A stretch of DNA of 51,818 bases from a virus, in IMG/VR virus record IMGVR_UViG_3300011116_000764, positions 1 to 51,818 of that record, one strand, 5' to 3'. This document shows, piece after piece, positions 4,950 through 50,099 of the stretch. The stretch's first letter is position 1. Each line of letters begins with the position of its first letter. The translations under genes and the position numbers were made by a program. Below the pieces are notes generated by a model. It had not been told where the DNA came from. It ran no database searches and worked only from the letters and a program-made list of their open reading frames with translations.

Positions 4950-5563
4950 GCCTGTGGTATCAGGCTCCCCAAAGCACATTCGAGCCCCGGGACAGTCGCT
5001 CCATCGGTTGGTCCCAGGTTCCCAATCGCAAAGCAGTCCTCCTAGACGACGACGTCCAGAGCCCGCAGCACAGCACCGGTGGGGGGACGCTCCTTGACCT
5101 GAGCAACACCATGCAGTTTGGCACGCCCCGAACTAACATTCAGTTTGACCCCACGGTTAACTTTGCCCAGTTTGGTTTTGAGAACATTCAAGACGTAAAC
5201 TTGGCTCAGTTTCAAATGATGGTTAGCCAGTCGCTGTCCGAGTTGTCTAACAAGATTAATTTCTACGCAGAGCAGGGGATTGACTACCTGGCTCGGATTG
5301 TGGCCCTTGAGACGTGGAAGGCGACTGGTATTACCGGGTGCGAACCAGAAATCTTTATGCGGGATTGGTCGTTTGATCCGGTCAGCGGTGACATCGTTAA
5401 CGAATACAAGGAGTTGCGTTTTGTTGACGGTCTGATGGTATTCCGCGATGGCGGAGTTGACGACCCGGATTGCCCCGGTACTGTTGCAAATGGAACTACA
5501 GCCACAACTGATTGCCCGAATAACTTTACGGGTGGCGGTGGTGGTCCTATTCTAGAGGGCTGA
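4946..5563 (+). CDS. Hypothetical virion protein, possibly tail-associated
   Basis: GTG at 4946 chosen because it overlaps the adaptor stop (GTGA) and has GAGGTGG just upstream; a GTG at 4937 is possible. The 205-residue protein has an N-terminal extended region, a middle helix (MMVSQSLSELSNKINFYAEQG), then an acidic part with four cysteines in the last 100 residues and a Gly-rich end. The decamer GTGGGGGGAC occurs at 5079-5088. From about 5130 on the codons become A/T-rich. No family recognised. Confidence 0.6.
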   Translation: MSLWYQAPQSTFEPRDSRSIGWSQVPNRKAVLLDDDVQSPQHSTGGGTLLDLSNTMQFGTPRTNIQFDPTVNFAQFGFENIQDVNLAQFQMMVSQSLSELSNKINFYAEQGIDYLARIVALETWKATGITGCEPEIFMRDWSFDPVSGDIVNEYKELRFVDGLMVFRDGGVDDPDCPGTVANGTTATTDCPNNFTGGGGGPILEG

Positions 5564-6366
5564 TGTCCCTATTTAGACTTGGTAACCAGCTACTTCGCAT
5601 TGCGGGTCAACTAGCACGAGACATTGCATGTTGTTGTGGTGGAGCTCCCGTAACTGGTGCGTGTTGTCTTGGTTGTCATTGCACAGACTCTCTTACTGAG
5701 TCACAGTGCACTGCACTGGGCGGTGTCTTTAAAGGAGTTGGCACGCCTTGTGATTACACGCTTGGCTCTTGTACTTGCTTAAGTGAGCCCAACTGTGATG
5801 CAGTAACATGCTGCGCACCTACGCCCGGTCTGGGATATGGGGCTACGTGTTATTATGATTTTGGCGGATTCCCTATCTCCACTTGCCAATGTGAAGCCTC
5901 GGTTGCAGAGGGTGGTTTGGGGGGTCGAGTTGTTACAACCGAGTGCACACAAGACATTGACTTTGAGTGCTGCAATGTTGGGGGAGTTGCTGGGCAATAC
6001 GCATGGGGCATTAGCTCTTGCGAGTGCGAAACTGGTGGCGGCGAGTACAACGTAATTGTTGCGGGAAGTTGCTGCATTGATGGTCAGTGCTACGACGGAG
6101 ACCCAGGTGGGTCTTCACCTGGCGTGTGGACTCGCTGTTACTGCGAAAATGTAATGGGGGGTACATGGAACGCAACAAGCTGCACACAAGACCCCTGTGC
6201 TTGCGGCGGCACATTTCAGATTGGCTGCTGCGAGGCGTGTTGTACTGACTGTGACAATCTTGATTTTTGTGATGATCCTGCTTTTATTGCTTGGGTTGCG
6301 CCTTACCTCCCATGTGCAACAATCATTAGGTTTGGCACAGACCAGCCTTGTACTGGGTGTGCCTGA
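5563..6366 (+). CDS. Cysteine-rich repeat protein (39 Cys in 267 aa)
   Basis: Starts at ATG overlapping the previous stop (TGATG). After a basic amphipathic N-terminus the protein is about 15 percent cysteine. Residues 31-63 form a GACC block with the spacing GACC-GxHC-TESQC-GG-TPC. Partly matching CCIDGQC and GGTW units follow. Such GACC repeats are, from memory, common in secreted proteins of Planctomycetes such as Phycisphaera and in aquatic metagenomic phages. It probably forms disulfide-stabilised modules on the virion, but no function is shown. Codons are A/T-rich compared with the adaptor gene. No signal peptide is evident. Confidence 0.75.
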   Translation: MSLFRLGNQLLRIAGQLARDIACCCGGAPVTGACCLGCHCTDSLTESQCTALGGVFKGVGTPCDYTLGSCTCLSEPNCDAVTCCAPTPGLGYGATCYYDFGGFPISTCQCEASVAEGGLGGRVVTTECTQDIDFECCNVGGVAGQYAWGISSCECETGGGEYNVIVAGSCCIDGQCYDGDPGGSSPGVWTRCYCENVMGGTWNATSCTQDPCACGGTFQIGCCEACCTDCDNLDFCDDPAFIAWVAPYLPCATIIRFGTDQPCTGCA

Positions 6367-6958: not shown

Positions 6959-7458
6959 TCCTCGTCTGCAGTTTGGTTCTAGGGTGTTCGGCCTCCCAGC
7001 ACATCGCTGAGGAGGCCAACACTATTTCCGCTAGTGCGGAAAACATCGAGAAGCTCGCGGAGCAAATCCGCCACACTTCTAAAGAAGTACAGACGATTCG
7101 CACCGCCACGGACATCAAGAACGAGGCCTTGCAGATTCGACAGTCAGTGGCGGAAATACATGCAACCCTCCCCGGCGTCCGGGACGTGACCCCCTGGTGG
7201 GCCTCCCTTATCCAGTGGGGCCTCATTGCACTCGTGGGGGGACTCGCCGTCTGGATCCTGTACTCCACCGGGGCCGTGACCGCCATCCGTGTGGCCGTCG
7301 GCTGGCTCCCCCGCCGCAAAGTGCAGGAGGCCCAGATCGCCGTGGCCGCCCTTGATGACTCCCGACCTGAGACTGCCCGAGAGTGGTTGGCTGCCCGCCG
7401 GGCCGCTGACCCAGAGTTCAACGCCGCATGGCTTAAGGCTAAAGAAAAGGTAGGCTGA
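6934..7458 (+). CDS. Lipoprotein with a C-terminal-half transmembrane segment; spanin-like candidate
   Basis: Start placed at GTG 6934, which gives a clean lipoprotein signal: a positive n-region, the hydrophobic GLILVCSLVL, and lipobox LGC near residue 17. The frame is open upstream, but an earlier start would bury the signal. Residues 25-75 look like a periplasmic coiled coil (SAENIEKLAEQIRHTSKEV). A transmembrane helix follows at about 91-113 (IQWGLIALVGGLAVWILY), then a basic tail of about 60 residues. An N-terminal lipid anchor plus a C-terminal helix is the architecture of unimolecular spanins, but the long cytoplasmic tail is not typical. GTGGGGGGAC occurs at 7234-7243. Confidence 0.5.
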   Translation: MDPRQAGLILVCSLVLGCSASQHIAEEANTISASAENIEKLAEQIRHTSKEVQTIRTATDIKNEALQIRQSVAEIHATLPGVRDVTPWWASLIQWGLIALVGGLAVWILYSTGAVTAIRVAVGWLPRRKVQEAQIAVAALDDSRPETAREWLAARRAADPEFNAAWLKAKEKVG

Positions 7459-8598: not shown

Positions 8599-11236
8599 CA
8601 ACGACACTCAATGGACATGGAACTTCACTGGGCCAACGACCATGTCAAAGGCCCAGTCTCGCCCCTCCACGCCCCGCGAGATTGCATGGGAATTGACCGG
8701 CATTGACGGCAACACGCCCGGCTGCCTGCGCACTCACCCTTCGTTCAAGAACATCTCCACGTTCACGGCCGCCGGTACCCTTGTCAACTTCTTCCCCATC
8801 ACCGTCATCTACAACGCCACGACCTACTACGTCGGCTACGTTGTGGTGCGCGAGCAGTCGGGCACGACCTACTTTGACTTCAACCTGAGCTCCAACGGAT
8901 CCACCGTCACCTCCATCACGAGTGTGCACACGGTAGCGGCCACGGGTCTTGAGGTGGACATCCAGTCGTACGGCCGTTACGTCTACATCTACATCCGCGG
9001 GTACCCCGCGCAGGTGGTGTACGTTGCCTCCGGCACCCCCACGCTGACCAAGCTTCCCGCAGGTCCCGGTCTTGTGCCCACTGTGGAAACCCAGCTTGAC
9101 ACCGGCACCTCAGCCGTCGTTGCCGCCCCCTGCGGCGTTGCCAGCGCTACTGTGACAAGCGGTGGAACTGGGTACACGTCTGCTCCCACCGTAACTTTTG
9201 CCGATCCTCCGAGTGTTCCCCCTGGTCGCACAGCACGTGGTTACGCAGTGATTTCTGCTGGCGTTGTTACTAGCATTGTGATTACCGACCAAGGTTCAGG
9301 TTATCTCAACACAAGCCCCCCAGGAATTACTTTTACTGGCAGCAACACTACACCTGCAACTGCTACCGCTGTTCTTAACCCAGGCACAGCAACGGCATCT
9401 ACTACCGGCCGTCTTGCAGTCATGGTGGACAAGCGTGGCACCACGGGCAAGACGCTGTACAAGTCAGGTAGCTACGGATTTGCCGTGCAGTTCCTGGACT
9501 CCACCACGGGACGCAAGAGTCAGATCTCCGAGATTGCCTACCTGGATGTGCCCAAGAATGGCACCTCTGACCAGAGTCTGCCCATCATGGTGCGTGTGTG
9601 GTTCCCCTCCTACTACACCGGCGGCGCATGGGTGCGTGGCGTGGGCAGCACTGCGGGCGTTTATGACAAGGCGTTGATCTACCGTACCGTCAATCAAGGC
9701 TCGGGTGGCACGCTCTACGGCAGTGGCCCTCTGCACTTGGACAGCATCATCACGGCCCCTGCAAGCACTGCCACGGTTACCCCTGATGGCGTGAACCTGC
9801 GTGTGAGCGACACCCAGTTGGTGTATCAGGACACGTTTGCTGGTCGTACCCGGTCTGACAATGTCCCCCCACAAGGTGGTGTGGCTCAGTTCCTGGGGTC
9901 AACCCTGTTTGTGAGCCGGGTTTTGAATAATACGGCTACGGCTTTGACTGACTCGGTCACGGGTGTCACGCCCCCCAACCCGCCGCCGGGTGTGGGTGAT
10001 CTGCGGTGGAGCACGACCTTGGATGTCCAGCCGGAGAACTTCAGCCAGTTCAGTAGGTGGGTGCCCCAGACTCCAGGTAACGAAGTGATTGCCATGCGTC
10101 GCGTGGGTATGTCCATGCTTGGTTTCTCCACAGACCGTATGTACAAGATCAGCCGCGCCGACTCTTTCATCAAGGTGGAAGAGATGCACGTAGGCTACGG
10201 CGTGGCGGGCAAGGATGCCCTCGAGGCCATTGGCACCATGACATATCTCGTGTCGGGTGCAGGTCTCAAGGCCATCTCCGCAGACGGCCAGTTAGAAGAC
10301 GTGACCAGCCTAGACACCCTGCTGAACGTGGACTGGGCCTCCTCCAAGGCCAACCTGAAGATGGCGTTTGACGCTACCGGCCAGTGCCTCCATATCCTGA
10401 AGCCCTCAGTCAACGGGCCGGATGGTGAGGCTGCGTGTATGTGGTTTGGTACGAACCGAATCACCATGCTGAAGGACCTGCCCTTCAAGCACATGCGCAG
10501 CGGCAACTGGATTGTGAGCAGCAAGAACGTCCGCCGATCCTTGTTTGTGAAGCGCCACAACGGCTCGGGAACCTACGGCGTGTACATGGTGGATTACGAA
10601 CGGACCCTGAACGGTACCAACCTTTGTGGGGGGACCGCCCGGAATGTGCAGTTCGGTCCTGTGTCCCCACCCGGCCCTCTTCCTGCCCCACCTCTTAGCC
10701 CTACGGTGTATGAGTTTGACTGTGCTGGCTACAAACTTGATGGCACCATGACCCGCACTACGGTGGCCGACATGTCCGATGCAGGAGCTGCCGAAAACTA
10801 CGAGAGCTCCAATTGGAGCGTGGCACCTATCCTTGTGCGATGGGTCGGCGGCAACATTGGGTTTCAGATGCAGCCGGATCAGCCAGAGTTCAAGGACTTC
10901 TTCCGCCAGAAGCAGGTCACCAATGCAGCCGCCTACGTGGAACTCATTAATGGTACGTTTGAGACAGACTTTACTCAATCGTGGTGCGCTGAGGTCTACG
11001 AGGGAACCTCTGACGTACCTGTTTATACAGCCACCCCGGTCAACCAAAGCGGCACAAAGGTGAGCACGGTCGGCTATGTGGGCAATGAAATGCCAAGGGC
11101 CCCGTTTGGACAGCACGGTGTGATGGGGGCCTCGTTGAGCCCGTCGTTTGTGTTCCCGGTCTGCGGCGTGGACATCAAGCTGCTTGCATTCTCGCTGACT
11201 GGACGGATACTTGATACACAGAGGAGACGAGTCTAA
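8591..11236 (+). CDS. Tail nozzle / tail tubular protein B-like
   Basis: An 881-residue, beta-rich protein starting at GTG 8591 behind GGAGAG, overlapping the previous stop. Residues near 470-620 (VAQFLGSTLFVSRV, GMSMLGFSTDRMYKIS, TMTYLVSGAGLKAIS) resemble tail nozzle proteins of short-tailed phages, where strands pack as a propeller at the tail tip. Residues about 185-265 hold an inserted GxGYTSAPTVTF-type module (see separate note) with A/T-rich codons. The size fits tail tubular B proteins (about 800 residues). GTGGGGGGAC occurs at 10626-10635, and its reverse complement at 9863-9872. Confidence 0.65.
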   Translation: MADNDTQWTWNFTGPTTMSKAQSRPSTPREIAWELTGIDGNTPGCLRTHPSFKNISTFTAAGTLVNFFPITVIYNATTYYVGYVVVREQSGTTYFDFNLSSNGSTVTSITSVHTVAATGLEVDIQSYGRYVYIYIRGYPAQVVYVASGTPTLTKLPAGPGLVPTVETQLDTGTSAVVAAPCGVASATVTSGGTGYTSAPTVTFADPPSVPPGRTARGYAVISAGVVTSIVITDQGSGYLNTSPPGITFTGSNTTPATATAVLNPGTATASTTGRLAVMVDKRGTTGKTLYKSGSYGFAVQFLDSTTGRKSQISEIAYLDVPKNGTSDQSLPIMVRVWFPSYYTGGAWVRGVGSTAGVYDKALIYRTVNQGSGGTLYGSGPLHLDSIITAPASTATVTPDGVNLRVSDTQLVYQDTFAGRTRSDNVPPQGGVAQFLGSTLFVSRVLNNTATALTDSVTGVTPPNPPPGVGDLRWSTTLDVQPENFSQFSRWVPQTPGNEVIAMRRVGMSMLGFSTDRMYKISRADSFIKVEEMHVGYGVAGKDALEAIGTMTYLVSGAGLKAISADGQLEDVTSLDTLLNVDWASSKANLKMAFDATGQCLHILKPSVNGPDGEAACMWFGTNRITMLKDLPFKHMRSGNWIVSSKNVRRSLFVKRHNGSGTYGVYMVDYERTLNGTNLCGGTARNVQFGPVSPPGPLPAPPLSPTVYEFDCAGYKLDGTMTRTTVADMSDAGAAENYESSNWSVAPILVRWVGGNIGFQMQPDQPEFKDFFRQKQVTNAAAYVELINGTFETDFTQSWCAEVYEGTSDVPVYTATPVNQSGTKVSTVGYVGNEMPRAPFGQHGVMGASLSPSFVFPVCGVDIKLLAFSLTGRILDTQRRRV

Positions 11237-12647: not shown

Positions 12648-14462
12648 ATGGCTGACTACACACAAGCAAGTTCCGCATTTGATCCCTCCGCACAGGGCCT
12701 TGCTTATGCCCAACAGCTGTTTGCTTTGCAGCAGGCAATGCAGGGAGGTGGTGGGGGTGGCGGTGGGGGGAACTACGCCAGTGGCGGTGGTAGCGAAACC
12801 AACATTGACCTGACGGGTATGCGCCTGCTCAACGATGAGAAGATGCGTGCCGCTCGTCAGATGGGTGCGTACGGCGCACAGATAGACAAGAAGGCTGCTG
12901 ACGCTGCCCACGCCCGTGAGATGGAACTTCTGCAGATGAAGGAAGCGATGGCCATGGACCGCGCTGACAAGGAGTTTGGTCAGGCGAAGGAACTGGAGGG
13001 CATGAAGTTTGGTCAGGGCATGCAGCTTGAAGACAAGCGCTTTGGCAATGAAATGTCTATTGCTAACCAGAAGAACGTCTTTGAACAAGGCCTTTTGGTC
13101 AAGTCGCAAGAGCATGATCGAAAGATGATGCAGGCTCAGATGGAAGCAAAACAGCAACTTGAAGATGACGCACGGGAGTTTACATTAGCGGCTATGAGGG
13201 CCCCCGCGGAAGCCAAGGCTGACCTTTTTGCCAAGCGTGATGCTGCCCTGCAAAAGTCACAAGAGCTTGACCAAAAGCTTCTTCAGGTTCAGGCTCGTGT
13301 AGCAAAGGACAAAGATGGTTACCAAGCTGATATGGTTCGACGTCGAGAAGAATTGGACAAGCGGCGAACAGCGTACGGCCTTATTGTCAAGCAAGCTGAA
13401 AGTGCTGCTTCGGAAGTAATTCCCACTGCTTTTAGCAACTTGTTGACTACTCATGGTGCTGGCCTTGGTGCTGGTGTGGGGGGTTTGAGTTACATTGGTG
13501 AGGGTGTTTTGCGCATGGGCGAAGCCATGCTTGGTCGCGACAACATCAATGACATGGAAATTGGTGGAGCCATTGACCGTGGGTACTTAAGCCCCCAGGC
13601 ACTGGCGGCTGCACGACAGGTAATGGGCGACCGCCTCAAGAACTTGGACACAACTCAATTTGATTTGAGTGGCAATAAAACGCACGGACCTGACGTGGAG
13701 AATTTGCAGGCGGCCAATACGTTTGCTGCTGATCGAATTTCAGATGTTCTGGTCAAGACCTTGGCGGCTACCGGCCGACAGATGGACCAGACCGCGGTGA
13801 CTGCAGGGGCCAAGCACCTTATTGCAAGCATGCAGATGTTGGATGCGTTGCCTTCCGGGGATAAAAGTCAGGGCGCATCGGCATTTAACGCCATTCGAAA
13901 TGCTGTATCTGATCTTGCAACTACGTTGTACAACGAGCCCGGCCATGAAGCCGAAGTGATTGACGTGTTTCGGACTGCGTTTGCTGAAATGAGCAAGGTT
14001 GGTTTGCAGCACAGTATTGAGTCGGAGCACCCAAAGGGGTTTGTAGGGGTTAAGGAAATCGCCCATGGTGCTTTGTCCTTCTTGGGTCAAAAGGCCAGTG
14101 CATATGGTGCCCTTTTGAAGCAGGCCGGTCATGGTCAGTACAACACTTTGGATACCATGGATTACGTTCTTGGGGCCATAGACAAGGCTGCTGGCAACCC
14201 GCAAGTCATCAAGTCCACCATGGAATCGGCTATGGCAGGCCCGATGGGTCGTCAGTTGGTTGACATGTCTAACCCCCTTGTTGCTGAGATTGCAGAATTG
14301 CTACAGACCAAAACAGACACGGACAAGGCCAAGGCTGATTTGGCTACCGAGGAGAGGTTGATGGGCCCCGACTACAGTCAGGGTGCTCAGGCCAAGGTAA
14401 GGGAAGCGAAGATCTTGGAAGACTTCTTGCGTGCCCAGCGAGAGCGTCGTTCAAAGAAGTAG
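12648..14462 (+). CDS. Internal virion / ejection-like coiled-coil protein
   Basis: A 604-residue protein, Gln/Ala-rich, with a Gly-run (residues 33-44) near the N-terminus and a long helical region after it with repeated FGQ(A/G) units (residues 104-136). The decay from high to lower G/C at third positions along the gene is visible. It resembles the neighbouring 466-residue protein in composition and probably shares a role in the internal core. No enzymatic motif seen. Confidence 0.5.
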   Translation: MADYTQASSAFDPSAQGLAYAQQLFALQQAMQGGGGGGGGGNYASGGGSETNIDLTGMRLLNDEKMRAARQMGAYGAQIDKKAADAAHAREMELLQMKEAMAMDRADKEFGQAKELEGMKFGQGMQLEDKRFGNEMSIANQKNVFEQGLLVKSQEHDRKMMQAQMEAKQQLEDDAREFTLAAMRAPAEAKADLFAKRDAALQKSQELDQKLLQVQARVAKDKDGYQADMVRRREELDKRRTAYGLIVKQAESAASEVIPTAFSNLLTTHGAGLGAGVGGLSYIGEGVLRMGEAMLGRDNINDMEIGGAIDRGYLSPQALAAARQVMGDRLKNLDTTQFDLSGNKTHGPDVENLQAANTFAADRISDVLVKTLAATGRQMDQTAVTAGAKHLIASMQMLDALPSGDKSQGASAFNAIRNAVSDLATTLYNEPGHEAEVIDVFRTAFAEMSKVGLQHSIESEHPKGFVGVKEIAHGALSFLGQKASAYGALLKQAGHGQYNTLDTMDYVLGAIDKAAGNPQVIKSTMESAMAGPMGRQLVDMSNPLVAEIAELLQTKTDTDKAKADLATEERLMGPDYSQGAQAKVREAKILEDFLRAQRERRSKK

Positions 14463-14474: not shown

Positions 14475-14843
14475 ATGTTCAACTGGCGACTTCTCAGTGC
14501 GGACCTGTGCCGAGACCACGCTACCGACGGCTTTGCCCGCCTAGCCCTTGGCCGGTCCTTTGACCTTGAGACCCGGCACGACCTACCCATCCTCAACCTC
14601 ACCCCCCTCCCCCTCGTCGTGGGGGGACCTTACCTGCGGGGGAAGCTTGTGCGGTCCTGGCTCTGGGAGATCCGCCACCTTCGGGCCATGAAGCGACCGT
14701 GGTCCATGCTCGTCTCAAAGTACGATCCAATTGAGCGGGTATCGACTGTCCACATTGGCACTGTTACACTGCCTGAAGTAGCAGAGCGATATGCCCGCGC
14801 GTGGCGTGGCTGCCCTCTGCCCCACGAACCAATGGTGCTTTAG
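14475..14843 (+). CDS. Hypothetical protein
   Basis: A 122-residue protein with many Leu, Arg and Trp residues, high-G/C codons, and no recognised domain. It starts 12 bases after the 604-residue gene and ends 2 bases before the next. It contains the decamer GTGGGGGGAC at 14619-14628 (Val-Gly-Gly). A beta-rich small tail or assembly protein is possible. Confidence 0.6.
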   Translation: MFNWRLLSADLCRDHATDGFARLALGRSFDLETRHDLPILNLTPLPLVVGGPYLRGKLVRSWLWEIRHLRAMKRPWSMLVSKYDPIERVSTVHIGTVTLPEVAERYARAWRGCPLPHEPMVL

Positions 14844-35832: not shown

Positions 35833-36374
35833 TGGATGATCTCCGAAGGATGGCGAGAAGCAGGACCGACCCACGACGAGTCGGGCAACTGCGGGTGAGA
35901 GTCACAACGTCGGTAGCGGCGATAGGAACCAGAGCGGCGACGGAAGTCAGGGTCACCGGAGGTTGGGAGGAACGGGTTGGCGTTACGGTCACGGATGCGT
36001 GGGGGGAGATTGGCCGCGTCGATATCGGCTGCGTTGAAGGAGCCGAAGAAGGCGGCCATGGAGCGGGCTAGGGTGTCGTCCTGCTGGAGGAAGGCCAGAG
36101 CCGCGCGGTGACCAAGACGCTGGATGAGGAGCGTGTTGGCGGAGCGACGGGTGGCGTGGTTGGCTGAGCGGAGGCGCTCGGCGTGGGTCGAGTCGCAGGT
36201 ACGGAGCGAGAAGTTGGGCGTGTCACAGCCGTGTGGATCGACGGCGGGGACCGCGTTGTTGGGATCGACGAGTTCCATACGACCGGACTCGATGCGAATG
36301 GGGATGTTGCCGAGAGAGAGGGTGTTACCGACAACGTCGGACTGGCGGATGTCGTTGATTCGATAGAAGGACAT
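35829..36374 (-). CDS. Hypothetical Arg-rich protein
   Basis: A 181-residue protein with AAGGAG before ATG 36374. The N-terminal 40 residues are beta-like (GNTLSLGNIPIRIESG). The middle is helical with many Arg and Ala residues (SANTLLIQRLGHRAALAFLQQ), and the end is basic (RRRSGSYRRYRRC), suggesting nucleic acid binding. No family recognised. Confidence 0.55.
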   Translation of the reverse strand: MSFYRINDIRQSDVVGNTLSLGNIPIRIESGRMELVDPNNAVPAVDPHGCDTPNFSLRTCDSTHAERLRSANHATRRSANTLLIQRLGHRAALAFLQQDDTLARSMAAFFGSFNAADIDAANLPPRIRDRNANPFLPTSGDPDFRRRSGSYRRYRRCDSHPQLPDSSWVGPASRHPSEIIH

Positions 36375-36428: not shown

Positions 36429-36433
36429 GCGAG

Positions 36434-38326: not shown

Positions 38327-38332
38327 CTCTGC

Positions 38333-38656: not shown

Positions 38657-39051
38657 GTGCAAACCTCCAATAAGGAGACCAAGCCACTGCAACACCACGC
38701 GGTGCTGTCCGGGCCTGCGCAGCCAAGGCCCGGCACACCGCCAACAACGACTCAGCAAGGGCCCATAACTGCTTGCACCGGATCGGTACGAGCCACACCC
38801 CCCCTTGGCCCCCGGGAAGGACGGCTTTATTGGAAGGAAAGAGGGAACCCGTCCCAAAATTTCCCCCCACATTCCATGGACCCGACCACACCGACCACAC
38901 CGACCATGTCTCCAGAAAACCGTACACCCTATAGCCCAATCGCTTACTAGTTTTCCTATTTACCTGGTCTCCCTGGTCAGAATGATATAAGTAAGGGAAA
39001 TAGCAGGACTTAACCCGACCACCTGTGTGGTCATAACCTGGTCGGACGTGG
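38657..39051. other. Long non-coding region beside the primase-helicase
   Basis: The longest gap without a gene (395 bp). The left part (38657-38880) is C-rich with a CGGGCC..GGCCCGG-type pairing near 38709-38733. The right part (38884-39051) holds the GACCA repeats and is more A/T-rich around 38930-39005 (TATAG, TTTTCC, GATATAAG). Position beside the primase-helicase and the repeats point to a replication origin or a control region for the leftward block. No gene or RNA was recognised. Confidence 0.6.
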
Positions 39052-39068
39052 TCACCCCTCCCTGACCA
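38884..39068. repeat. GACCA/TGGTC repeat region, possible iterons
   Basis: Ten copies of GACCA or its complement TGGTC occur in 185 bases: tandem 9-mers at 38884-38892, 38893-38901 and 38902-38910 (GACCACACC, GACCACACC, GACCATGTC), then 38965, 38974, 39017, 39028, 39039, 39049 and 39064. GACCAC and GTGGTC at 39017-39032 form a perfect inverted repeat with a 4-base spacer. The last two copies reach into the end of the primase-helicase gene. Pattern suggests initiator or repressor binding. Confidence 0.6.
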
Positions 39069-40449
39069 CAACCCCCCTGACCCCTCTAATCCGCTCATCG
39101 CCCAATCGAGCCCTAACAAGCTTCCATGTACTCTCCTCTACCATCCTATGAACGAGCTGAGCCTGCGACACATCCTCCCGATACCCCACTCGAGCCTTCC
39201 ATTGCTTCCAGATCCCCCACAAATTGGTCGTACTGACGAATCCCCCTTCGCTTTCCACGAAATGGGACTCAAGGAAGTCCTGCACGGGGTTGTTCAGGGA
39301 CTGGAAACGCCCCACAACCTCGTCTGCCGCCGTTGGTACCGGCCACAACTTGCCCGAATTGGTCTCCTCAAGCAGCTCCTTAGCCCCCTGCAGCGCCCAC
39401 GCCGCAATGCCCGCGGTCTCCTGCGCCAACTTTGACGCCAACTGCAGGTCCTCTCGGCCCAAAAAGCTATTGGTAAACGGCAAAACCAGCATCTTGCTGG
39501 CCAAACCCTGCCCCTTATTGGGCAACTTGGGGATCTCGTTGCTCTGCACCACCAAGAAACCCGGTATCACCACATCCCTAATCGGCTCCATGTACTTCCG
39601 ATCAATGCTCACGGGGTCTCCACCCACAATGTTCTTCAACGTACTGGCCGCCAACTCACCCTCCCTGCTATTCAGCGCCCCAAACTCACTGACACTCAGC
39701 ACTCTGGCGGCCTCCGAACCCCACAATCCGAACTGACTGGCCAGTTGCGCCATGCTCAGCCCCCTAAAACCATCGCCCACAAGGTTCTTCACCACCCGCA
39801 TGATGGTTCCCTTGCCGCCACGGACCCGTCCCTGCATCAGAAGCCACCGCTGCCACCTCCGTCCCGGCATCAACATGGCCCCCATGGCCCTCTGCAGCAG
39901 ACTCTTCCACTTCTCATCACCCCCACTCCACTGTTCCAAGCACTCCATCCACGTAGGACACGCAGCCGCCGGATCCCACGCACACCCTACGACCACCGGC
40001 TCAAAGAACAGCTCGTCCCTAACCACCGTCTTGCCCGTCAGCACATCCACAACCACATCCTCAAAAGCCACGCACCGCTCAAGCTCCGGCGTATCCACCA
40101 CATTGCCTAGCCACGCGGGTGCATAGCTCTGCTTCAACCGGATCAGCGCCCTCAACGCTTGCTGCACGTTCATCACGGTCTGACTTGTGGGCCCCAAGCG
40201 CCTCGTGTTCACGCCCGTCGGCGTCGGCGTCTGGATATGCGCATCTTCCATCGCCAACCACAGCGCCTCTTCCAACCACCTCTCATCCCTGCGCACCCAC
40301 TTGCCCGCGTACCACTCCCACGGCTCGCCTCGCCACTCCCAAATACCCATCCGTCCCTGCGGCGTAGTCCACCTCGCCCTCAAGATAGCCCTAGCAATTG
40401 CCATGGGCTCTGCACTGTTCAGCGGGTTCCGTTGCGTCAAGACTTTCAT
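39052..40449 (-). CDS. D5-type primase-helicase
   Basis: A 465-residue protein at the head of the leftward block, with AGGAGG before ATG 40449. GRVRGGKGT at residues 207-215 is the Walker A loop. The following SMAQLASQFG, RVLSVSEFG and PGFLVVQSNEIPKL segments match the core of poxvirus D5/P4-type superfamily 3 helicases. The N-terminal 150 residues may hold a primase-associated or DNA-binding part but show no clear catalytic motif. It lies directly beside the GACCA repeats, supporting an initiator or replicative helicase role. Confidence 0.85.
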   Translation of the reverse strand: MKVLTQRNPLNSAEPMAIARAILRARWTTPQGRMGIWEWRGEPWEWYAGKWVRRDERWLEEALWLAMEDAHIQTPTPTGVNTRRLGPTSQTVMNVQQALRALIRLKQSYAPAWLGNVVDTPELERCVAFEDVVVDVLTGKTVVRDELFFEPVVVGCAWDPAAACPTWMECLEQWSGGDEKWKSLLQRAMGAMLMPGRRWQRWLLMQGRVRGGKGTIMRVVKNLVGDGFRGLSMAQLASQFGLWGSEAARVLSVSEFGALNSREGELAASTLKNIVGGDPVSIDRKYMEPIRDVVIPGFLVVQSNEIPKLPNKGQGLASKMLVLPFTNSFLGREDLQLASKLAQETAGIAAWALQGAKELLEETNSGKLWPVPTAADEVVGRFQSLNNPVQDFLESHFVESEGGFVSTTNLWGIWKQWKARVGYREDVSQAQLVHRMVEESTWKLVRARLGDERIRGVRGVVVREG

Positions 40450-41972: not shown

Positions 41973-42407
41973 ATGAGCCAACCCAATCTGATGTACATCT
42001 CCTTCGGTGGGGGGATGCGCCTTGTTGGTGAGGACTACATCCTCCGCGAGCTCGCCGCACTCGGCCTCACAAAGCGAGGCCTGCGCCAGCTCTTCCGCAA
42101 GCTGAACGTCCCCGTCATCCACGCACCCGGCGACCGCATCCTCGTGGACCTTATCGCCTTCATGCTGGCGATGCGAACCATCACCCGGCCCGGTGCACCA
42201 GACTTCTCGCTGCCCGGCTCCCAGCACCGACCCAACACACGCACTTCCGTTTCCTCCCAAGAGATCATCGACGCGATCCCCGAGACCACTGAGCTCATGG
42301 AACGCGGACGCAAGATGTTTGGCATAGTGCAACCTGGCACCTTAAGATCTGCAGCTGGCGAGGTCGTCTCGCGCCTCAAGGACACCCAAGCTCGGATCAA
42401 GAACTAA
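41973..42407 (+). CDS. Small protein with helix-turn-helix-like segment
   Basis: A 144-residue protein starting 2 bases after the previous stop. Residues 20-64 (LILRELAALG-type helix, then LTKRGLRQLFRKLN and VIHAPGDRILVDL) look like an excisionase or MerR-type DNA-binding unit. The C-terminal half is helical. It could be a regulator or a DNA-recognition protein for packaging; the position before the terminase allows either. No family recognised. Confidence 0.5.
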   Translation: MSQPNLMYISFGGGMRLVGEDYILRELAALGLTKRGLRQLFRKLNVPVIHAPGDRILVDLIAFMLAMRTITRPGAPDFSLPGSQHRPNTRTSVSSQEIIDAIPETTELMERGRKMFGIVQPGTLRSAAGEVVSRLKDTQARIKN

Positions 42408-44326
42408 TGCCCCCCATCTTCCGTTCAAAGCCAAAAGCTGGAATCAAAGTTACTGAAGCTCGAATGGGGGCTCCCGAGCTTCGTAATCCAAAGCGGGCCA
42501 TTGCTGGTACTACCGGCCGTGTCCCCAATTTGGCTGACTTGGTAAAGTTGGGGAAAGAACCCCGCCTTAAGGTACAGGACAATCAGCTACTTCTGGCTTT
42601 TGGGCCTGGATACGCACAGGGAAAGGCCATCAGTCGCGGTCAGCAGGAGACGTGGCACACGCTTGACGAAGCCGTCAAGCTGGTGGAAGCCGCAATCCCG
42701 GGAGCTAGCAAGCAAGCAACCGCCCGATACCAATCCATTATTGAGCAAATCAAAAAGTTGCAGTCGGATGCTGCTTTGATGGCGGAGCTGCCACTTGTAG
42801 ACGAACGTCTCATGACCTTGGCCCAAGCTCGCCAACGTCTTGCTGACAAGGTTGCTACCAAGTCGTTCCTTCAAGGCCAAGGTAACCCAAACTTTGAGGC
42901 ATCTACCGGCACTCCAAAGCTTCGTCCCGTTAAGGAGGGCGATGTTCAGGGTCTAGCTCGCCGCACCAAGGACCGGATGGCCTTGCAGCAGCAGCTGTAC
43001 AAGAACAGAAACTACAAGGCCCTTCCAGCAGAAGCCAAAACTGTTGTGAACATGGCCGTGAACACGGGGCAAATCTCCGTGGCGGACGTTGATCTCATTC
43101 TGACCAATGCCAAGAAGCAAGACCCCAAGGTATTGGAGGATCCCGAACGGTTGGGTCGGTTGATTGAGGTTGGAATTGCCGACAAGTTTAGGAAAACTGC
43201 TGTTGGTGCGTACCGAAGGGACATCTCTGGCTCACCCAATGTCGAATCCAAGTTGGCCGAGGTGGTCCCAGCTGAGGTGCCTGCATTTATTGACGAAGCC
43301 AAAGAACTCCTACGCACAGGCCAGTCTGGCAAGGGCATAGCCAAGCAGGTAAAGGGTCTTTTTGATCGAATTGACACCTCATCGGGTGTATCTGTGGAGC
43401 AGCGCACGTCCATCAAAAACCGTGTGGTTGAAATGCTGATGCGCAGCAACTTCGGTGACGACACACTGCGAGAACTTGCCAAGATCACCGCACGATCCGG
43501 TGGTGTCATGGCGCAGGACGCGGAAGGCAAGCTGATCCCGGTTAAGAAAACCAAGCTCGGCCTGCTAGGGGAGGGCTTGGCATCACTTAAGAAACTCATG
43601 GGGGTGGCAAACCTTACAAAACTTGACTTGCAGGCCGCCCGGGAAAACGCGGCCCTGCGTGGCAAGGCGGAATCCCGACGATCACCCGGACCTGCTGACA
43701 TAAACCCCAAGGCCCCCGGTACCAACCCTATCCTTGCGCTGATTCGAGCCAGGGAAGCAGCAACCAAACCGGTTGGCCCACCAATCCCCGAGGTAATGCG
43801 CCGTGGGGGGGTGCCCTATCGTCCGTCAACCGCAAAGCCGGGGGACCCATTGCCAGTTCGCAGTGAAGTCCGCGAGCCCGTAGCTCCAGCCCCACCTGGA
43901 CCAGCCCCAACTCCTGTTCCGGAAATGGTTTCAGGCAGGTCTGCAGCTGCCACCAAGGATTTTGCTCTTGTGCAAGCAATTGATGACGCAGTCAAGGGCT
44001 TGAAGGCTGACCCCCAGCGGTGGCGTGAATTCAGGGAGCCCCCAACCTACAAGGACATCATTACTCAACTCAAGCCCAATGTGTCAAAGCTTGAGTTGAA
44101 GCGAATCTTGGCTTTGGTTAACAAGGGCCTGCCCCCTGAGACCTACCAAGAAATCAGAAGCCAGGGGCCCTTGGCCCCCCCGTCACCACGAGTGCCGACT
44201 GGCCCTATGGCCGCACCTACCCAGGAAGCCAACCGTAACTTGATGATTGACTTTGTCAAAAAGCTGCAGAGAAGTGGTATGCCAACCGAGAAGATCGCAA
44301 GCATCCTTCGGTACATTGAAGGCTAA
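42407..44326 (+). CDS. Large hypothetical protein, probably virion-associated
   Basis: A 639-residue protein with a basic N-terminus (RSKPKAGIKV, NPKRAIAG), helical segments throughout, and a Pro-rich linker at about 455-510 (APAPPGPAPTPVPE). No enzymatic motif recognised. It starts one base into the previous stop and ends in the start of the next gene (TAATG). Possibly an internal virion or scaffolding-associated protein. Confidence 0.6.
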   Translation: MPPIFRSKPKAGIKVTEARMGAPELRNPKRAIAGTTGRVPNLADLVKLGKEPRLKVQDNQLLLAFGPGYAQGKAISRGQQETWHTLDEAVKLVEAAIPGASKQATARYQSIIEQIKKLQSDAALMAELPLVDERLMTLAQARQRLADKVATKSFLQGQGNPNFEASTGTPKLRPVKEGDVQGLARRTKDRMALQQQLYKNRNYKALPAEAKTVVNMAVNTGQISVADVDLILTNAKKQDPKVLEDPERLGRLIEVGIADKFRKTAVGAYRRDISGSPNVESKLAEVVPAEVPAFIDEAKELLRTGQSGKGIAKQVKGLFDRIDTSSGVSVEQRTSIKNRVVEMLMRSNFGDDTLRELAKITARSGGVMAQDAEGKLIPVKKTKLGLLGEGLASLKKLMGVANLTKLDLQAARENAALRGKAESRRSPGPADINPKAPGTNPILALIRAREAATKPVGPPIPEVMRRGGVPYRPSTAKPGDPLPVRSEVREPVAPAPPGPAPTPVPEMVSGRSAAATKDFALVQAIDDAVKGLKADPQRWREFREPPTYKDIITQLKPNVSKLELKRILALVNKGLPPETYQEIRSQGPLAPPSPRVPTGPMAAPTQEANRNLMIDFVKKLQRSGMPTEKIASILRYIEG

Positions 44327-44892
44327 TGCCTCCCGCACTACCCGACCCGAAGAAACCGACGGACCCACTCACCTCGTTCTTTGCGAGCGAATCCGTGGGG
44401 GGCGCGCTCAGAGCGTCGGGCTTCGACATTCATGAGGAAATGGAGACACTGGTCCGACATTTCCGCGACACAGACCCTAACATCTCACTTCGAGCCCACT
44501 CCCGGCTCCGGCACGTGATCAGGGAGGTCGCACAGGCTTCTGGTCTGATTCAGAAGCAATCCGCTGAAGCGATTGAGACGCAAGACGGGCGCAAGGTGAA
44601 GGTCTCCTTCGAGACCTCCAAGCTGGTGTCCAAGATTCAGGAGAACGTACATGGCATCGTCGACCAAGACCGTCCGGAGTTCGCAAGCACCTACCTCCCC
44701 GCAGCCACAGATTCCCCCCACGCCGGAAGACCCGATTCTGGTGCAAGCGATCCAGCAGATCGAAGCGATGGACGACATGCAGATGGCGCGAGCAGCGGGT
44801 CAGGTGTTGTACGATCTGGCGATACAGGATCCTGTGACCTCGGTGGCGAGTCCGGAGATGCTGGGTCTGATCTTGAAGACGACGCTTCGTGA
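44326..44892 (+). CDS. Hypothetical protein, small terminase candidate, with overlapping C-terminus
   Basis: A 188-residue protein. The first 110 residues are helical and charged (EEMETLVRHFRD, RAHSRLRHVIREVAQ, KVSFETSKLVSKIQENV). From about residue 119 the reading frame runs through the next gene and becomes Gly/Asp/Ser-rich (DGRHADGASSG, LGGESGDAGSDLEDD), which looks less protein-like. A 242-base overlap with the next gene is exceptional here. Position before the large terminase makes a small-terminase role possible, but no family match. Confidence 0.5.
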   Translation: MPPALPDPKKPTDPLTSFFASESVGGALRASGFDIHEEMETLVRHFRDTDPNISLRAHSRLRHVIREVAQASGLIQKQSAEAIETQDGRKVKVSFETSKLVSKIQENVHGIVDQDRPEFASTYLPAATDSPHAGRPDSGASDPADRSDGRHADGASSGSGVVRSGDTGSCDLGGESGDAGSDLEDDAS

Positions 44893-45070
44893 CGACCACG
44901 GAAAGCTCTTTCCCGAATACCTGCCGCTGCTGAAGCAGTACCTGTCGCACTCGATGGTTGCTCGTGATCCCCGCCTTGTTGCGGTGGCCATCACGCGCAT
45001 CATTACCGTCCAGCTGTACGCAGCCGGAAAGCTGAAGAATGCAAATCAAGCGAATCCCGCAACCGCCTGA
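44651..45070 (+). CDS. Hypothetical protein overlapping its upstream neighbour
   Basis: Starts at ATG 44651 behind a good AGGAG (TTCAGGAGAACGTAC), inside the preceding gene and in a different frame. The 139-residue protein has an N-terminal Pro/Ser-rich stretch, then helical segments (ILVQAIQQIEAMDDMQMAR, PEMLGLILKTTL, LLKQYLSHSMV). It ends 32 bases inside the terminase gene. It may be the true small-terminase or a packaging accessory protein; no family match. Confidence 0.6.
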   Translation: MASSTKTVRSSQAPTSPQPQIPPTPEDPILVQAIQQIEAMDDMQMARAAGQVLYDLAIQDPVTSVASPEMLGLILKTTLRDDHGKLFPEYLPLLKQYLSHSMVARDPRLVAVAITRIITVQLYAAGKLKNANQANPATA

Positions 45071-46973
45071 GAATCCGCTTTATCCCCTGCCTGCTGATTA
45101 CGACACGCTGACCGATGAAGGCCAGCGGCTTGCTCGTATCAATGCAACGCGACAGTGGCTTCTGCCCTCGACTGACCTGAAGCAGCGAGCCATTGATTTC
45201 ATTTCCTCACTCCGTTTCTTCGAGGCTTGGTATCTATGGCCGGACCCCGATACGGATTTCAATCCTTTGTTCTTCGACGACACTCCGGTGCCGACTCCGA
45301 AGGGCCACGTTTCAATCTACAAGGAATGGGCGACATCCCGATCAAGCATTGCCGTGGCCCCTCGTGGTTACGCGAAGAGCAACTGCATCCGCAAGTCGAT
45401 CTTGCTGCAGATGCTCACCCGACCGGCCTTCTCCTTTATCTACGCTACGAGCTCGCACGACAACGCGCAGCAAACGAGCCAGATCATCAAGAGTCAGTTC
45501 ACGGACAACTCGCGGATCTTCGACGACTTTTCTCCTGAGTTCCCCGACGGTCGCATTGTTCCCCGCCGCGGCGAAGCATCCTTTGGCCTTGAGATGATGT
45601 ACCTCAAGAACGGCTCGTGGCTCCGGGCCATCTCCGCATCCAGCAAGCAGCGCGGCGGTCGACCCCGGTGCTACATCCTCGATGACCCTGAGTACGACCC
45701 CAAGGCCTCGACGTCGATGGCGGTACTCCGCGACTACGTGGAGAATCTGCTGTTCAAGATCGTGCTGCCCATGCTCACTCGCCCCGACACCTCGGTGCGG
45801 TGGCTGGCTACCTTCGTCAGCCGACGTCACTATGCGTGGCATGCCATGCAGACCGAGCAGACGCCCAGTGGTCCGCGAGCACGGGATCCGCGCTTTGAGT
45901 TCTGGTCACGCATGCTTCTTGACTCGGAGTACGAAAAAGACGGAAAGCTCCACTCCTGTTGGCCCGAGATGTGGCCCCTCAACCGTGCAGACAAACTTGC
46001 GCGACCAGATCTTTCGAACCGCATTTCCCTTGAGGAAATCAAAGAACGAATCGGTAATGCTGTCTATCTGGCTGAGTATCGCGGTCGACCCGGTGAGAGC
46101 GGTGAGAACTTCTTCCCGCCCCTCATCCGTGAGAACCACGGGTGGTGGATTGAGGACCCGGATCCGTCCTTCGACACTGACCCGGTGACCTCCGATACTA
46201 AGATCGCGTGGGGGGAGAAAACCGGAATCAAGGTGATGCCCATCAAGGACTTCCTCTTGAACTCCCTCACCTTCATGGCTGTCGATACGTCGTATACTCA
46301 TGGTCCTGACTCGGACTATAAGGTAGCAGTTGTCATGGCGGTTAACAGTGACAACTGCCTTTTTGTTCTAGATATGTGGGCAGGCCAGGTTCCCGAGGAC
46401 CAGCTGATCCGGAACGTCTTCCGCCTGGCCGACAAGTGGAAGGTCCCCTCCATCCACCCCGAGGTGGTCCGCGAGTCGGTCAACCTCTACCAGCAGCTGG
46501 AAACCCTGGTCCGCCAGCGGGCCACCGAGATCACCGGCACCTCCCACATGCCCAAGATCATGCCCCTCAAGGTGGGCATGGTCCAGAAGGAAGCCAAGAT
46601 CTCCGGTCTCCTGTTCCGCTTTGAGCACGGCCTCCTCAAGCTCCCCATGTGGAAGCGCATGGACAAGCCATGGCGCGAGCTTTTTGACCAGCTGGAGCAG
46701 TTCAACCCTGAAGCCCGTGACGGCGGTCTAGCCCACGACGACCACATCGACGCGGTGGCCATGTCCTCCATGATCCTGAAGTTCCGACTGCCCAAGCGCG
46801 GCCTGGGTATCGAGGCGGTGAAGTCCCCCCTCGAACGGTTGAAGGACGGCGAGCGTCATGACAATGGGGTGTCCTTGCTGTCCATGGTTGACTGGAACAG
46901 CCTTCCAAGTGATGATGTCCTTGATATCTTAAGGCCAGAGGAGCATACAAATGACGGCGAGACCAGAGTCTGA
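45039..46973 (+). CDS. terL: Terminase large subunit
   Basis: A 644-residue protein. The ATPase motor has a Walker A-like VAPRGYAKS near residue 107 and a Walker B YILDDPEYD near 210. The C-terminal nuclease domain shows MAVDTSY near 415 with catalytic-type Asp, and HDDHIDAVAM near 566. The length and order match the large terminases of tailed phages, which package DNA into the procapsid. The start at 45039 overlaps the previous gene. It is in the same block as portal and capsid genes. Confidence 0.95.
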   Translation: MQIKRIPQPPENPLYPLPADYDTLTDEGQRLARINATRQWLLPSTDLKQRAIDFISSLRFFEAWYLWPDPDTDFNPLFFDDTPVPTPKGHVSIYKEWATSRSSIAVAPRGYAKSNCIRKSILLQMLTRPAFSFIYATSSHDNAQQTSQIIKSQFTDNSRIFDDFSPEFPDGRIVPRRGEASFGLEMMYLKNGSWLRAISASSKQRGGRPRCYILDDPEYDPKASTSMAVLRDYVENLLFKIVLPMLTRPDTSVRWLATFVSRRHYAWHAMQTEQTPSGPRARDPRFEFWSRMLLDSEYEKDGKLHSCWPEMWPLNRADKLARPDLSNRISLEEIKERIGNAVYLAEYRGRPGESGENFFPPLIRENHGWWIEDPDPSFDTDPVTSDTKIAWGEKTGIKVMPIKDFLLNSLTFMAVDTSYTHGPDSDYKVAVVMAVNSDNCLFVLDMWAGQVPEDQLIRNVFRLADKWKVPSIHPEVVRESVNLYQQLETLVRQRATEITGTSHMPKIMPLKVGMVQKEAKISGLLFRFEHGLLKLPMWKRMDKPWRELFDQLEQFNPEARDGGLAHDDHIDAVAMSSMILKFRLPKRGLGIEAVKSPLERLKDGERHDNGVSLLSMVDWNSLPSDDVLDILRPEEHTNDGETRV

Positions 46974-47208: not shown

Positions 47209-49171
47209 GCCCGCCGATATTGCAAAGTTTATGCGCATGCACGTGGACCGTGAGCGTGTGCGCTATAACTATCGCCGATCCATCTGGCTGCTGGCGTGGC
47301 ACTACCTGAACGGCGCTCGTCGCTTTGACGTCTTTGACCCGCTTACTGGCCGCCTTTCCCCCCACTATCTGGACCGCGAAGGCAACATGGAGTTCCAGTC
47401 GCAGGACCTCCTCTCAATGATTGACCGCACCGTGGCGCGCATTGCCACCATGGATCTGCGGCCCAAGATCATGCGCCAAGGCACCAGCCTCCGCATGATC
47501 CGCGAGCGCTCCAGCGCCCAGATCATTGCCGACTCGCTGGTCTCCGACCACCAGCTTTCCCAGGTCACCTCCGACTTTGCCCACATCTTTGCGACCCTGG
47601 GTTGCTGCGGAATCATGGGGCACCTCACCGATGTCCCCACCGTCGGCCTTACTGCCGATCTTGAAGTGGTGCACCCTCGTGAGGTGTTCCCATTCCCCGC
47701 CCTGCACCAGGATCACACCAAGCAGAGCGGCATCATCCGCCAGCGCGTGGTCCCCATCGACCTGCTTGCCTCCAAGTTCGGAAAGATCTCCGCCAAGAAG
47801 AAGGACCAGATGGAGTGGTGGAAGGTTGACCACGGCGACGTAACGACCGACCTTGGCCTTGACGAGCCCGGCTCGTACATGCGCAACCCCTTCAACAACA
47901 GCGGCATTACCACCGGCGCATCCGAAGGCACCGACGTGGTCAATGAAGTGGCTCGTATCCGCGAACTGTGGATCAACGGTCCCCGCGACACCTGCGTCCG
48001 CTACGTTGTAACCAGCGGCAACGAGGTTCTCGTCGACGAGTCATACGAAGACGCGGCGATGTACTGCCCCCTGGGCTGGGCCCGCTTCATGGATACCGGC
48101 ACCTTCTACGGCGCTGGCATGTTCGACCTTCTGTTCGGCATCTGCCGACAGGCCGAGCACATGATGAAGAGCCTCTTCAACAACATCCGCGACACCGACC
48201 GCTACGGCGTCCTCGTGCTTCCGCAGGGCTCGATGAACGAGCGCACCCTCCTCAAGGACGTGGGTCGTGGTCTGCGCGTGATGACCTACACCCCGGACCC
48301 GTTGAACGAGAACTTCAAGCCGTTCCCCATCCAGCCGTGGAACGCAGGCGATGCACCCGGCAAGGTGGCCCAGTTTGCACGCGACGTGATGCAGCAGATC
48401 AGCCCCGTCCAGGATCTCTTGCAGGAGAAGGGCCGCGTAGACAGCGCCCCCGGTCTGCAGTTCCTCGATGAGCAGATCACCAAGGCCATGACCAATCCCT
48501 CGATTGGCATTCAGCGCGCCTTCGGCAACATGTACCGCTCGCTCACTGCTCAGGCCGTGGCGGAAATCGTGAAGTTCCCGCGTACGGTGCCCGTCAACTA
48601 CGTTACCTTGGACCTTGCCGGTGCTGTTCTGGACATTGACAAGTCTGAGGTGTCCTTCGATCAGAACCCGCTGCCACAGGTGGGCTACCTCACCTTTGGC
48701 GTCAAGCAGGTCAACCCCCGCAGTGACACCGCCCGCAAGGAAGAAGCACTCAACCTGCTCAAGACCGGCCTCACCGACCCCATCAGCCTGAAGATCTTTG
48801 CCCTTAAGGAGGGTTTGGACTTTGCCATGTGGATGGACGAAGAAAAGGGTGCGTACGAGTCAGTCGTGCAGAACATCCTCCTGCTGTACGGCAACGGCGA
48901 GGACCCCGGTCAGATCGTGCTTACTCAGCACATGAGCCGACCGGACATCCAAATGCGTGTCCTCAGCGGCTTCATGACCAGTCCCATCCTTGCGGCGGCC
49001 AGCGCGGAAGTGCAGGACGAATTCCGCAAGTTCCGAGACACGATGCTGCAGTTCATGGGCCAGACCCTGCCGCAGCAGATCCCGACTCCTGATGAAGCTG
49101 CCGCTATGGGCATGCAGCCGCAACAGGCACCCCCACAAATGCCCATGCAAGGAATGATGCCGAATGGCTGA
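47174..49171 (+). CDS. Portal protein
   Basis: GTG 47174 chosen for the GAGGAC site and moderate overlap with the previous gene; earlier starts would read deep into that gene. The 665-residue protein has a helix-rich N-terminus (FMRMHVDRERVRYNYR), the portal-type region VAHIFATLG-like (SDFAHIFATLGCCGIMGHLTD) followed by VVHPREVFPFP, and a C-terminal helical domain with a Gln/Met/Pro-rich tail. It forms the ring through which DNA enters. Size and context between terminase and scaffold agree. Confidence 0.85.
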   Translation: MNTRSPLSLPSKPADIAKFMRMHVDRERVRYNYRRSIWLLAWHYLNGARRFDVFDPLTGRLSPHYLDREGNMEFQSQDLLSMIDRTVARIATMDLRPKIMRQGTSLRMIRERSSAQIIADSLVSDHQLSQVTSDFAHIFATLGCCGIMGHLTDVPTVGLTADLEVVHPREVFPFPALHQDHTKQSGIIRQRVVPIDLLASKFGKISAKKKDQMEWWKVDHGDVTTDLGLDEPGSYMRNPFNNSGITTGASEGTDVVNEVARIRELWINGPRDTCVRYVVTSGNEVLVDESYEDAAMYCPLGWARFMDTGTFYGAGMFDLLFGICRQAEHMMKSLFNNIRDTDRYGVLVLPQGSMNERTLLKDVGRGLRVMTYTPDPLNENFKPFPIQPWNAGDAPGKVAQFARDVMQQISPVQDLLQEKGRVDSAPGLQFLDEQITKAMTNPSIGIQRAFGNMYRSLTAQAVAEIVKFPRTVPVNYVTLDLAGAVLDIDKSEVSFDQNPLPQVGYLTFGVKQVNPRSDTARKEEALNLLKTGLTDPISLKIFALKEGLDFAMWMDEEKGAYESVVQNILLLYGNGEDPGQIVLTQHMSRPDIQMRVLSGFMTSPILAAASAEVQDEFRKFRDTMLQFMGQTLPQQIPTPDEAAAMGMQPQQAPPQMPMQGMMPNG

Positions 49172-50099
49172 TGAGACCCCAAACACCGCAGACACTACTC
49201 CCGCGCCCGAAACCGCCAAGCCCGCTCTTGACCTCGACTCCACCGTTCGCGTGGGGGGACAAGACGTTTCTATCAAGGAACTGGTGGACGCTCGCGAGAA
49301 CCTGGAGTACCTGCGTCAGGACTACAGCAAGCTTGTTTCGTTCCGCGATGCCACCTCCAAGGTGATGCGTCCGGATGTGGATCCCCAGGTCAAGGAGCAG
49401 GCTGCCCGTCAGCTGCTCGTGGACATGGGGTACCAGGGTGAAGAAGTGGACAACTACGTCAATGACTGGATGCAGTCTCAGCAAGGAGCAATGAACGTGA
49501 ACGACAACGTGGATACGACGCCGGAAGGTGATGAGGATGACCGCAGCGCAGAGCAGGTGGCCAATGCCATCATGCAGGCACAGCAGGAGGCGCAGTCTGC
49601 CCGTGAGCAGCTGGACCGCATGCGCGCTGAGCAGCTGAACGGTCGCATGAATTCGCAGATCGTGGTGGGCCTTGATTTGAACAAGGACGCCCGTACGATG
49701 TTGAGCAAGCTCGAGGAGATCAACGGAAAGGAAGCCGTTGCAAATGCTCGTAATGCTTTTGAGCGTGACATCCGCCAGCAGGCGATGGACAATCTCAAGG
49801 CACGCCGCGCGGCTGCAGGGACTTTCGAAGAAGCGTGGGTCACCGAAGAGGCAGCAAGGGCGACTGACCAAGTCCTTGCGAAGTACCGCTCGGTAATCGG
49901 CGACCCCAACCGTTTGGGACGGGCCCCGGAAACAGACAGCAGTGCGAGTGCGTTTGCCAACCGTAAGCCCCTTTCGGCTCCAACGTGGAAGCCGGGAATC
50001 AGCACTGGCGACATTGAGACCGCTCTTGACGCATACAACAAGGATGCGCTGAGCCGTCTGGCCGCTGGTCTTGATACGGGAACTGACGGTCGCGTCTGA
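49164..50099 (+). CDS. Scaffold-like protein
   Basis: A 311-residue protein starting 8 bases inside the portal gene, behind AAGGA. It is acidic and helical with a Pro/Thr-rich N-terminus (DETPNTADTTPAPETAK), a coiled coil (IMQAQQEAQSAREQLDRMRA), and a charged C-terminal part. Size, composition and the place just before the capsid gene match scaffolding proteins. GTGGGGGGAC at 49251-49260 (Val-Gly-Gly). Confidence 0.75.
   Translation: MADETPNTADTTPAPETAKPALDLDSTVRVGGQDVSIKELVDARENLEYLRQDYSKLVSFRDATSKVMRPDVDPQVKEQAARQLLVDMGYQGEEVDNYVNDWMQSQQGAMNVNDNVDTTPEGDEDDRSAEQVANAIMQAQQEAQSAREQLDRMRAEQLNGRMNSQIVVGLDLNKDARTMLSKLEEINGKEAVANARNAFERDIRQQAMDNLKARRAAAGTFEEAWVTEEAARATDQVLAKYRSVIGDPNRLGRAPETDSSASAFANRKPLSAPTWKPGISTGDIETALDAYNKDALSRLAAGLDTGTDGRV

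Follow-up and report, generated by a model that had tools for sequence, protein, structure and literature searches.

Chi sites of E. coli and Chi-like sites of other bacteria, which are read by RecBCD or AddAB, are short, G-rich, asymmetric words that are dispersed, over-represented and placed regardless of genes. A known Chi is a host word, dense on the host chromosome and read by the host. A Chi density of 0.2 per kb has been reported for E. coli and its phages, and phages which depend on concatemers and leave RecBCD unblocked carry the host Chi in excess (PMC3784561). Outside five species, Chi sequences are known for few species (PMC8022716). The nick motifs of T5, phiKMV and tf (LUZ24 group) are another kind of dispersed word. 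In the 46 kb of phage tf, a 9-nt word occurs 14 times, dispersed and always on the same strand, and relatives of tf have a one-letter variant (PMC3517423).

The FtsK orienting sequences (KOPS) are short, G-rich and asymmetric as well, and show a strong switch of orientation at the origin and terminus. The stoperators of mycobacteriophage L5 are asymmetric, dispersed and lineage-specific; they follow transcription and lie mostly at gene borders.

The word described here was found in the window, that is, the whole stretch of viral DNA analysed (51,818 nucleotides; IMG/VR record IMGVR_UViG_3300011116_000764). Like Chi sites, it is short, G-rich, asymmetric, dispersed, over-represented and placed regardless of genes. 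As in the tf-type phages, it belongs to the 9-nt class, is dispersed over a genome of similar size and has variants among relatives. As in L5, many asymmetric copies lie across one phage genome. In contrast to known Chi, the versions of the word follow the phage family, and no searched bacterium is dense in it. Whereas the tf motifs are confined to one strand, the window's family, known here from sequence alone, has copies on both. Whereas stoperators sit mostly at gene borders along transcription, the words of this family lie mostly inside genes, in both senses.

An Exact Nonamer in the Window

An earlier note on this DNA had listed 12 exact copies of a decamer (10 plus and 2 minus) and had put the number expected well below one. 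All 12 positions are exact, and an order-3 Markov model expects 0.23 copies on both strands. The nonamer core GTGGGGGGA is a better unit than the decamer. There are 23 copies of it in the window (17 plus and 6 minus; Table 1), about 1 per 2.3 kb over the whole genome. The third-order Markov model predicts 0.84 copies for both strands together, which is not similar to 23. In a synonymous-codon shuffle of the window, 1.1 copies were expected and the observed total was reached in none of 1000 runs. When the motif codons were masked, the codon null gave an expectation of 1.19 and a maximum of 4 (300 runs).

The length of the G-run is exact. In the form GTG-Gs-A, six Gs occur 23 times in the window (0.8 expected) and five Gs 3 times (2.8 expected), while a search for seven Gs gave no copy in the window. 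Pooling four genomes of the window's lineage, I counted 90 copies against 3.1 expected. In this lineage, C is clearly tolerated at the first position and A less so, and C is tolerated at the last position.

The copies are mostly intragenic, lie in several reading frames, and some of them are antisense to genes. The earlier note had described mixed frames and had named the copies at 21751, 23187 and 29602 as antisense. The description holds overall, but the antisense status of copy 21751 is uncertain because it lies outside all genes of the analysed set. A glycine-rich protein motif was ruled out by the codon-matched nulls and the mixed reading frames, and G-rich composition as the cause was ruled out by the exact run length. 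Among the enriched word types of the window, CAAGGCCA ranks second, with 12 plus and 9 minus copies (4.6 expected); a 9-mer of the CAAGGCCA family, CAAGGCCAA, has 5 plus and 5 minus copies (1.1 expected).

Table 1. Positions of the nonamer copies and of core genes in the window
Feature	Positions	Strand	Basis
GTGGGGGGA copy, decamer with C	5079..5087	+	exact match
GTGGGGGGA copy, decamer with C	7234..7242	+	exact match
GTGGGGGGA copy, decamer 9863-9872	9864..9872	-	exact match
GTGGGGGGA copy, decamer with C	10626..10634	+	exact match
GTGGGGGGA copy	12763..12771	+	exact match
GTGGGGGGA copy, decamer with C	14619..14627	+	exact match
GTGGGGGGA copy, decamer with C	17546..17554	+	exact match
GTGGGGGGA copy, decamer with C	20183..20191	+	exact match
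GTGGGGGGA copy, decamer with C, in no gene of the analysed set	21751..21759	+	
Sak4-like ssDNA-annealing protein, core gene; candidate partner	22491..23396	-	PHROG 124, AAA_24, family conservation
GTGGGGGGA copy, decamer with C, antisense to Sak4-like gene	23187..23195	+	
Stand-alone RecB/AddB-type PD-(D/E)XK nuclease, core gene; candidate motif reader	23769..25064	-	PDDEXK_1
ERCC4-type nuclease (weak match), core gene; other candidate	27421..27975	-	domain match and family conservation
DNA polymerase, core gene	27985..29982	-	match and family conservation
GTGGGGGGA copy, absent from earlier note	28270..28278	-	exact match
GTGGGGGGA copy, antisense to polymerase gene	29458..29466	+	
GTGGGGGGA copy, decamer with C, antisense to polymerase gene	29602..29610	+	
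GTGGGGGGA copy, decamer 30810-30819	30811..30819	-	exact match
GTGGGGGGA copy	31333..31341	+	exact match
GTGGGGGGA copy	33010..33018	+	exact match
GTGGGGGGA copy	35999..36007	+	exact match
GTGGGGGGA copy, absent from earlier note	38862..38870	-	exact match
Primase/helicase-type protein, core gene; other candidate	39052..40449	-	PHROG 6088
GTGGGGGGA copy	42007..42015	+	exact match
Conserved small gene preceding the terminase; may encode the small terminase subunit	44326..44892	+	position only
GTGGGGGGA copy, absent from earlier note	44713..44721	-	exact match
Terminase large subunit; basis of the family search, the orientation and the tree	45039..46973	+	PHROG 38
GTGGGGGGA copy, within terminase gene	46208..46216	+	
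GTGGGGGGA copy, absent from earlier note	47357..47365	-	exact match
GTGGGGGGA copy, decamer with C	49251..49259	+	exact match

Versions of the Word Follow the Phage Lineage

With the terminase as query, 37 related viral contigs were retrieved at first and 80 later, in overlapping sets. The relatives form an uncultured tailed-phage family with genomes of about 48-54 kb, whose shared core genes include those for terminase, portal and primase-helicase. The family is syntenic, and its core consists of the Sak4-like protein, PD-(D/E)XK nuclease, ERCC4-like protein, DNA polymerase, uracil-DNA glycosylase, primase-helicase, terminase, and portal and capsid candidates. An apparent loss of the polymerase and the nuclease in one relative (G121) was a gap in the contig only. 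No close cultured phage was found with the terminase and recombination proteins as queries. Exact terminal repeats of 123-127 bases were found in four relatives and of 99 bases in one, and the window has a terminal repeat of about 90 bases. These repeats are as expected of circular assemblies, and thus the window is near a whole genome. One relative is opened within the polymerase gene.

Some neighbouring genes were also compared. The uracil-DNA glycosylase superfamily gene (30594-31472, minus) is present in nearly all checked family contigs spanning the region. A gene with a strong match to a PHROG 'tail protein' (E=1e-35; 25077-26933, minus) sits amid the recombination and replication block; it is present in one relative (G003) and absent from the other relatives checked. 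A CobS-like AAA ATPase lies beside a weak von Willebrand-domain protein (31611-34750, minus), and this CobS/CobT-like pair was seen only in those relatives that are nearer to the window.

When the 8-mers of 29 contigs, which range from 41 to 67% GC, were ranked by over-representation, a version of GTGGGG(G) came first in every contig. The versions are cGTGGGGGGAc in the window (GTGGGGGGA preceded by C), AGTGGGGGGA, GTGGGGGGGA, CAGTGGGGGT, CAGTGGGGGG and GAGTGGGGG. The core GTGGGG(G) is constant in the family, and the flanking letters and the length of the G-run vary with the phage lineage. On the terminase tree (84 rows), the version changes 10 times, against 44.7 times with shuffled labels. 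The CAGTGGGGGT lineage has 78 copies where 0.3 are expected, and single-base variants are near zero at nine of the ten positions. A convergent-residue scan, which left out the recombination genes, found no residues tracking the switch from CAGTGGGGGT to CAGTGGGGGG in the terminase, the small gene before it, the portal, the capsid candidate, or the products of the genes at 49164 and 4005.

Aligned copies are kept between genomes. In comparisons with relatives of falling similarity, 11/18, 5/8, 6/8 and 3/5 copies were kept, against 19%, 8%, 9% and 4% of background 9-mers, so that the retention of copies is 3 to 14 times above background; off-motif G-runs were kept at 6-23% in the compared genomes. 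A protein-guided alignment confirmed that copies are retained among the GTGGGGGGA lineages. When the CAGTGGGGG and GAGTGGGGG lineages were aligned in this way, no positions were shared (0 of 8-15), at a similar density. The word density in the family is mostly 0.4-0.7 per kb, or one per 1.5-2.5 kb. The spacing of plus copies tends to be even: all 20 contigs have a gap CV below 1, and a minority of them are individually significant.

Strand Bias

Strong polarity of the word had been claimed at first from a list of nonamers that is right for the 17 plus copies and lacks four minus copies (28270, 38862, 44713 and 47357). With these four included, the ratio in the window is 17:6. The bias itself stands after the full count. 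In the relatives, where the plus strand was defined by the orientation of the terminase, plus copies are in the majority in nearly every family contig. Four lineages with almost no sites in common give 85:33 (P=2e-6), and the pooled shared genes of eight genomes give 93:47, that is, 66% plus (P=1e-4 against 1:1). However, a codon-matched null in which the motif codons are masked gives 60% plus by itself, and the 66% seen in the shared genes does not significantly exceed this value (P=0.17). I therefore describe the word as asymmetric with a plus bias and claim no selected polarity. Minus copies are conserved between relatives too, and plus copies outnumber minus copies on minus-strand genes as well. 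Strict strand polarity was weakened as a candidate by the four extra minus copies and the codon null.

A segregation-type reading, as for KOPS, had also been suggested; the strict polarity of KOPS is not supported here, the bias being weak beyond composition, in contrast to the strong switching of KOPS. No consistent orientation switch of the origin/terminus kind was seen in the family site lists, and a scan of the genes gave no FtsK-like motor among those covered. In the window, the GC skew made replication-arm polarity look possible, but a hand count of the sites of one relative (G008) showed no switch. The GC skew is strong in 28000-41000 and flips near 37.5 kb, from +0.29 to -0.28, within the minus-strand gene block; part of this block thus has a C-rich coding strand. 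In the seven-G lineage (L034 and L036-L039), the rare six-G words are all minus and near the terminase, and the seven-G words are nearly all plus.

Searches outside the Family

I searched 2.9 million viral contigs with motif-pair baits, which are blind to genomes without a close pair of words. Dispersed copies were found only in the window's phage family; the remaining matches were local repeats, and no unrelated phage with the dispersed word was found in this search. The bait recovered two distant family members, G083 and G089, that were absent from the terminase searches. Among the matches listed for GTDB genomes, the bait showed no dispersed copies at phage density, these matches being tandem or hairpin repeats. 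One uncultured Myxococcales genome of 3.2 Mb (L160) has 316 copies of GTGGGGGGA, and GTGGGGGGAC is part of its hairpin-like repeats.

In addition, the 8-mer AGTGGGGG, which lies within most word versions but not the window's own, was counted in about 670 bacterial genomes of six phyla, a sample that excludes Verrucomicrobia, Planctomycetes and others. It reaches at most about 1 copy per 18 kb there, without phage-like density. A provirus search by terminase found no relative among GTDB genomes, and the literature on the words yielded nothing relevant. The suggestion that the word is enriched on the host chromosome thus received no support from the GTDB matches listed or from the 670 or so genomes.

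A Candidate Reader

In AddAB, Chi is bound by a helicase-like part of AddB. The stand-alone nuclease of the window (431 aa) has a PDDEXK_1 match (E=3e-11) and the RecB-family residues of PD-(D/E)XK nucleases. By family comparison, H67, D187, D202-x-K204 and Q222-xxx-Y226 are invariant. The best PDB match of its structure model (pLDDT 84) is AddAB chain B, which I take to be AddB (E=2e-5; TM-score 0.34 on the query). A Pfam search of the nuclease gave no helicase domain, so that the Chi-binding helicase-like part of AddB is absent. The nuclease gene adjoins the Sak4-like gene, and this arrangement of an AddB-like nuclease next to a Sak4-like protein makes a Chi-like end-processing pathway run by the phage plausible.

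Possible Roles of the Word

The exactness of the word, its excess over the codon-matched null, its conservation and its occurrence in the whole family strongly support a genuine, selected, asymmetric, lineage-specific DNA recognition word of an uncultured phage family. On the same grounds, the earlier note was right that a protein motif does not explain the copies. Very probably, the word is a site that a DNA-handling enzyme recognises. This selected site, which co-evolves with the lineage, would most likely be used in a Chi-like way, with the phage's own end-processing enzymes as the reader; I put the probability of this reading at roughly 0.4. The Chi-like role proposed at the outset is thus possible in a phage-read form, while its host-chromosome form is unsupported by the genomes searched.

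A phage-encoded DNA-processing enzyme would read the word. It may belong to an end-resection machinery made of the AddB-like nuclease and the Sak4-like annealing protein, perhaps together with a helicase, and this machinery would switch its mode at the word. The switch may protect the phage DNA from full degradation, and it may start recombination and concatemer formation.

It is rather unlikely that the word is instead a nicking, priming or packaging site of a phage nickase, primase or terminase, comparable to the motifs of T5, phiKMV and tf. The number of copies in tf and the one-letter variant in its relatives (PMC3517423) are in favour of such a site, as are the fairly even spacing and the dominance of plus copies on the terminase strand. 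However, tf has all its words on a single strand, whereas about 30% of the copies here are on the other strand (17:6 in the window and 93:47 in the pooled shared genes) with a bias that is largely codon content, and the residue test found nothing in the terminase, portal or capsid.

A host word is unlikely. In this case the word would be the Chi of the bacterial host, read by the host RecBCD or AddAB, and its versions would differ because the hosts differ. GTGGGGGGA is over-represented against composition models as a Chi is, and phages leaving RecBCD unblocked are rich in Chi sites, which are likewise short, G-rich and asymmetric (PMC3784561). The versions could track hosts as well as phages, and outside five species the known Chi sequences are few (PMC8022716). 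Against this, the bacterial bait matches listed have no dispersed copies at phage density, AGTGGGGG is dense in none of the 670 or so genomes from six phyla, and no unrelated phages with the dispersed word were found among the viral contigs searched with the bait. The density in the family (mostly 0.4-0.7 per kb) also exceeds that of E. coli Chi.

An operator bound by a repressor at many places is very improbable: L5-like repressors do have asymmetric, dispersed, lineage-specific sites, but the copies here are mostly intragenic and in both senses relative to transcription, not transcription-oriented near gene borders, and neither an integrase nor a repressor was matched among the genes scanned. 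There is a negligible chance that the excess stems from G-rich composition, glycine codons or shared ancestry of the copies. The word is a G-run which glycine codons can host, but such an origin is contradicted by the codon-matched nulls, the exact run length, the independent placement in distant lineages and the occurrence of the word both at about 41% and at 67% GC.

If the Chi-like reading with a phage-encoded reader is correct, I would tentatively propose that this phage family has a Chi of its own, namely a self-mark word set by the lineage. Word-bearing DNA would be spared or recombined and other DNA degraded, and the word and its reader would co-evolve. The word, nine or ten letters long and exact like a restriction site, has been retained by an uncultured phage family that is widespread, and it shifts with phage ancestry. 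It can serve as a sequence tag for spotting family members, as its use alone as bait for two distant ones indicates, and its at least five versions are a natural series for matching to candidate reader proteins. Dispersed recognition words are usually host words imitated by phages, whereas this word follows phage ancestry. Chi-like self-marking encoded by a phage thus becomes a directly testable question.
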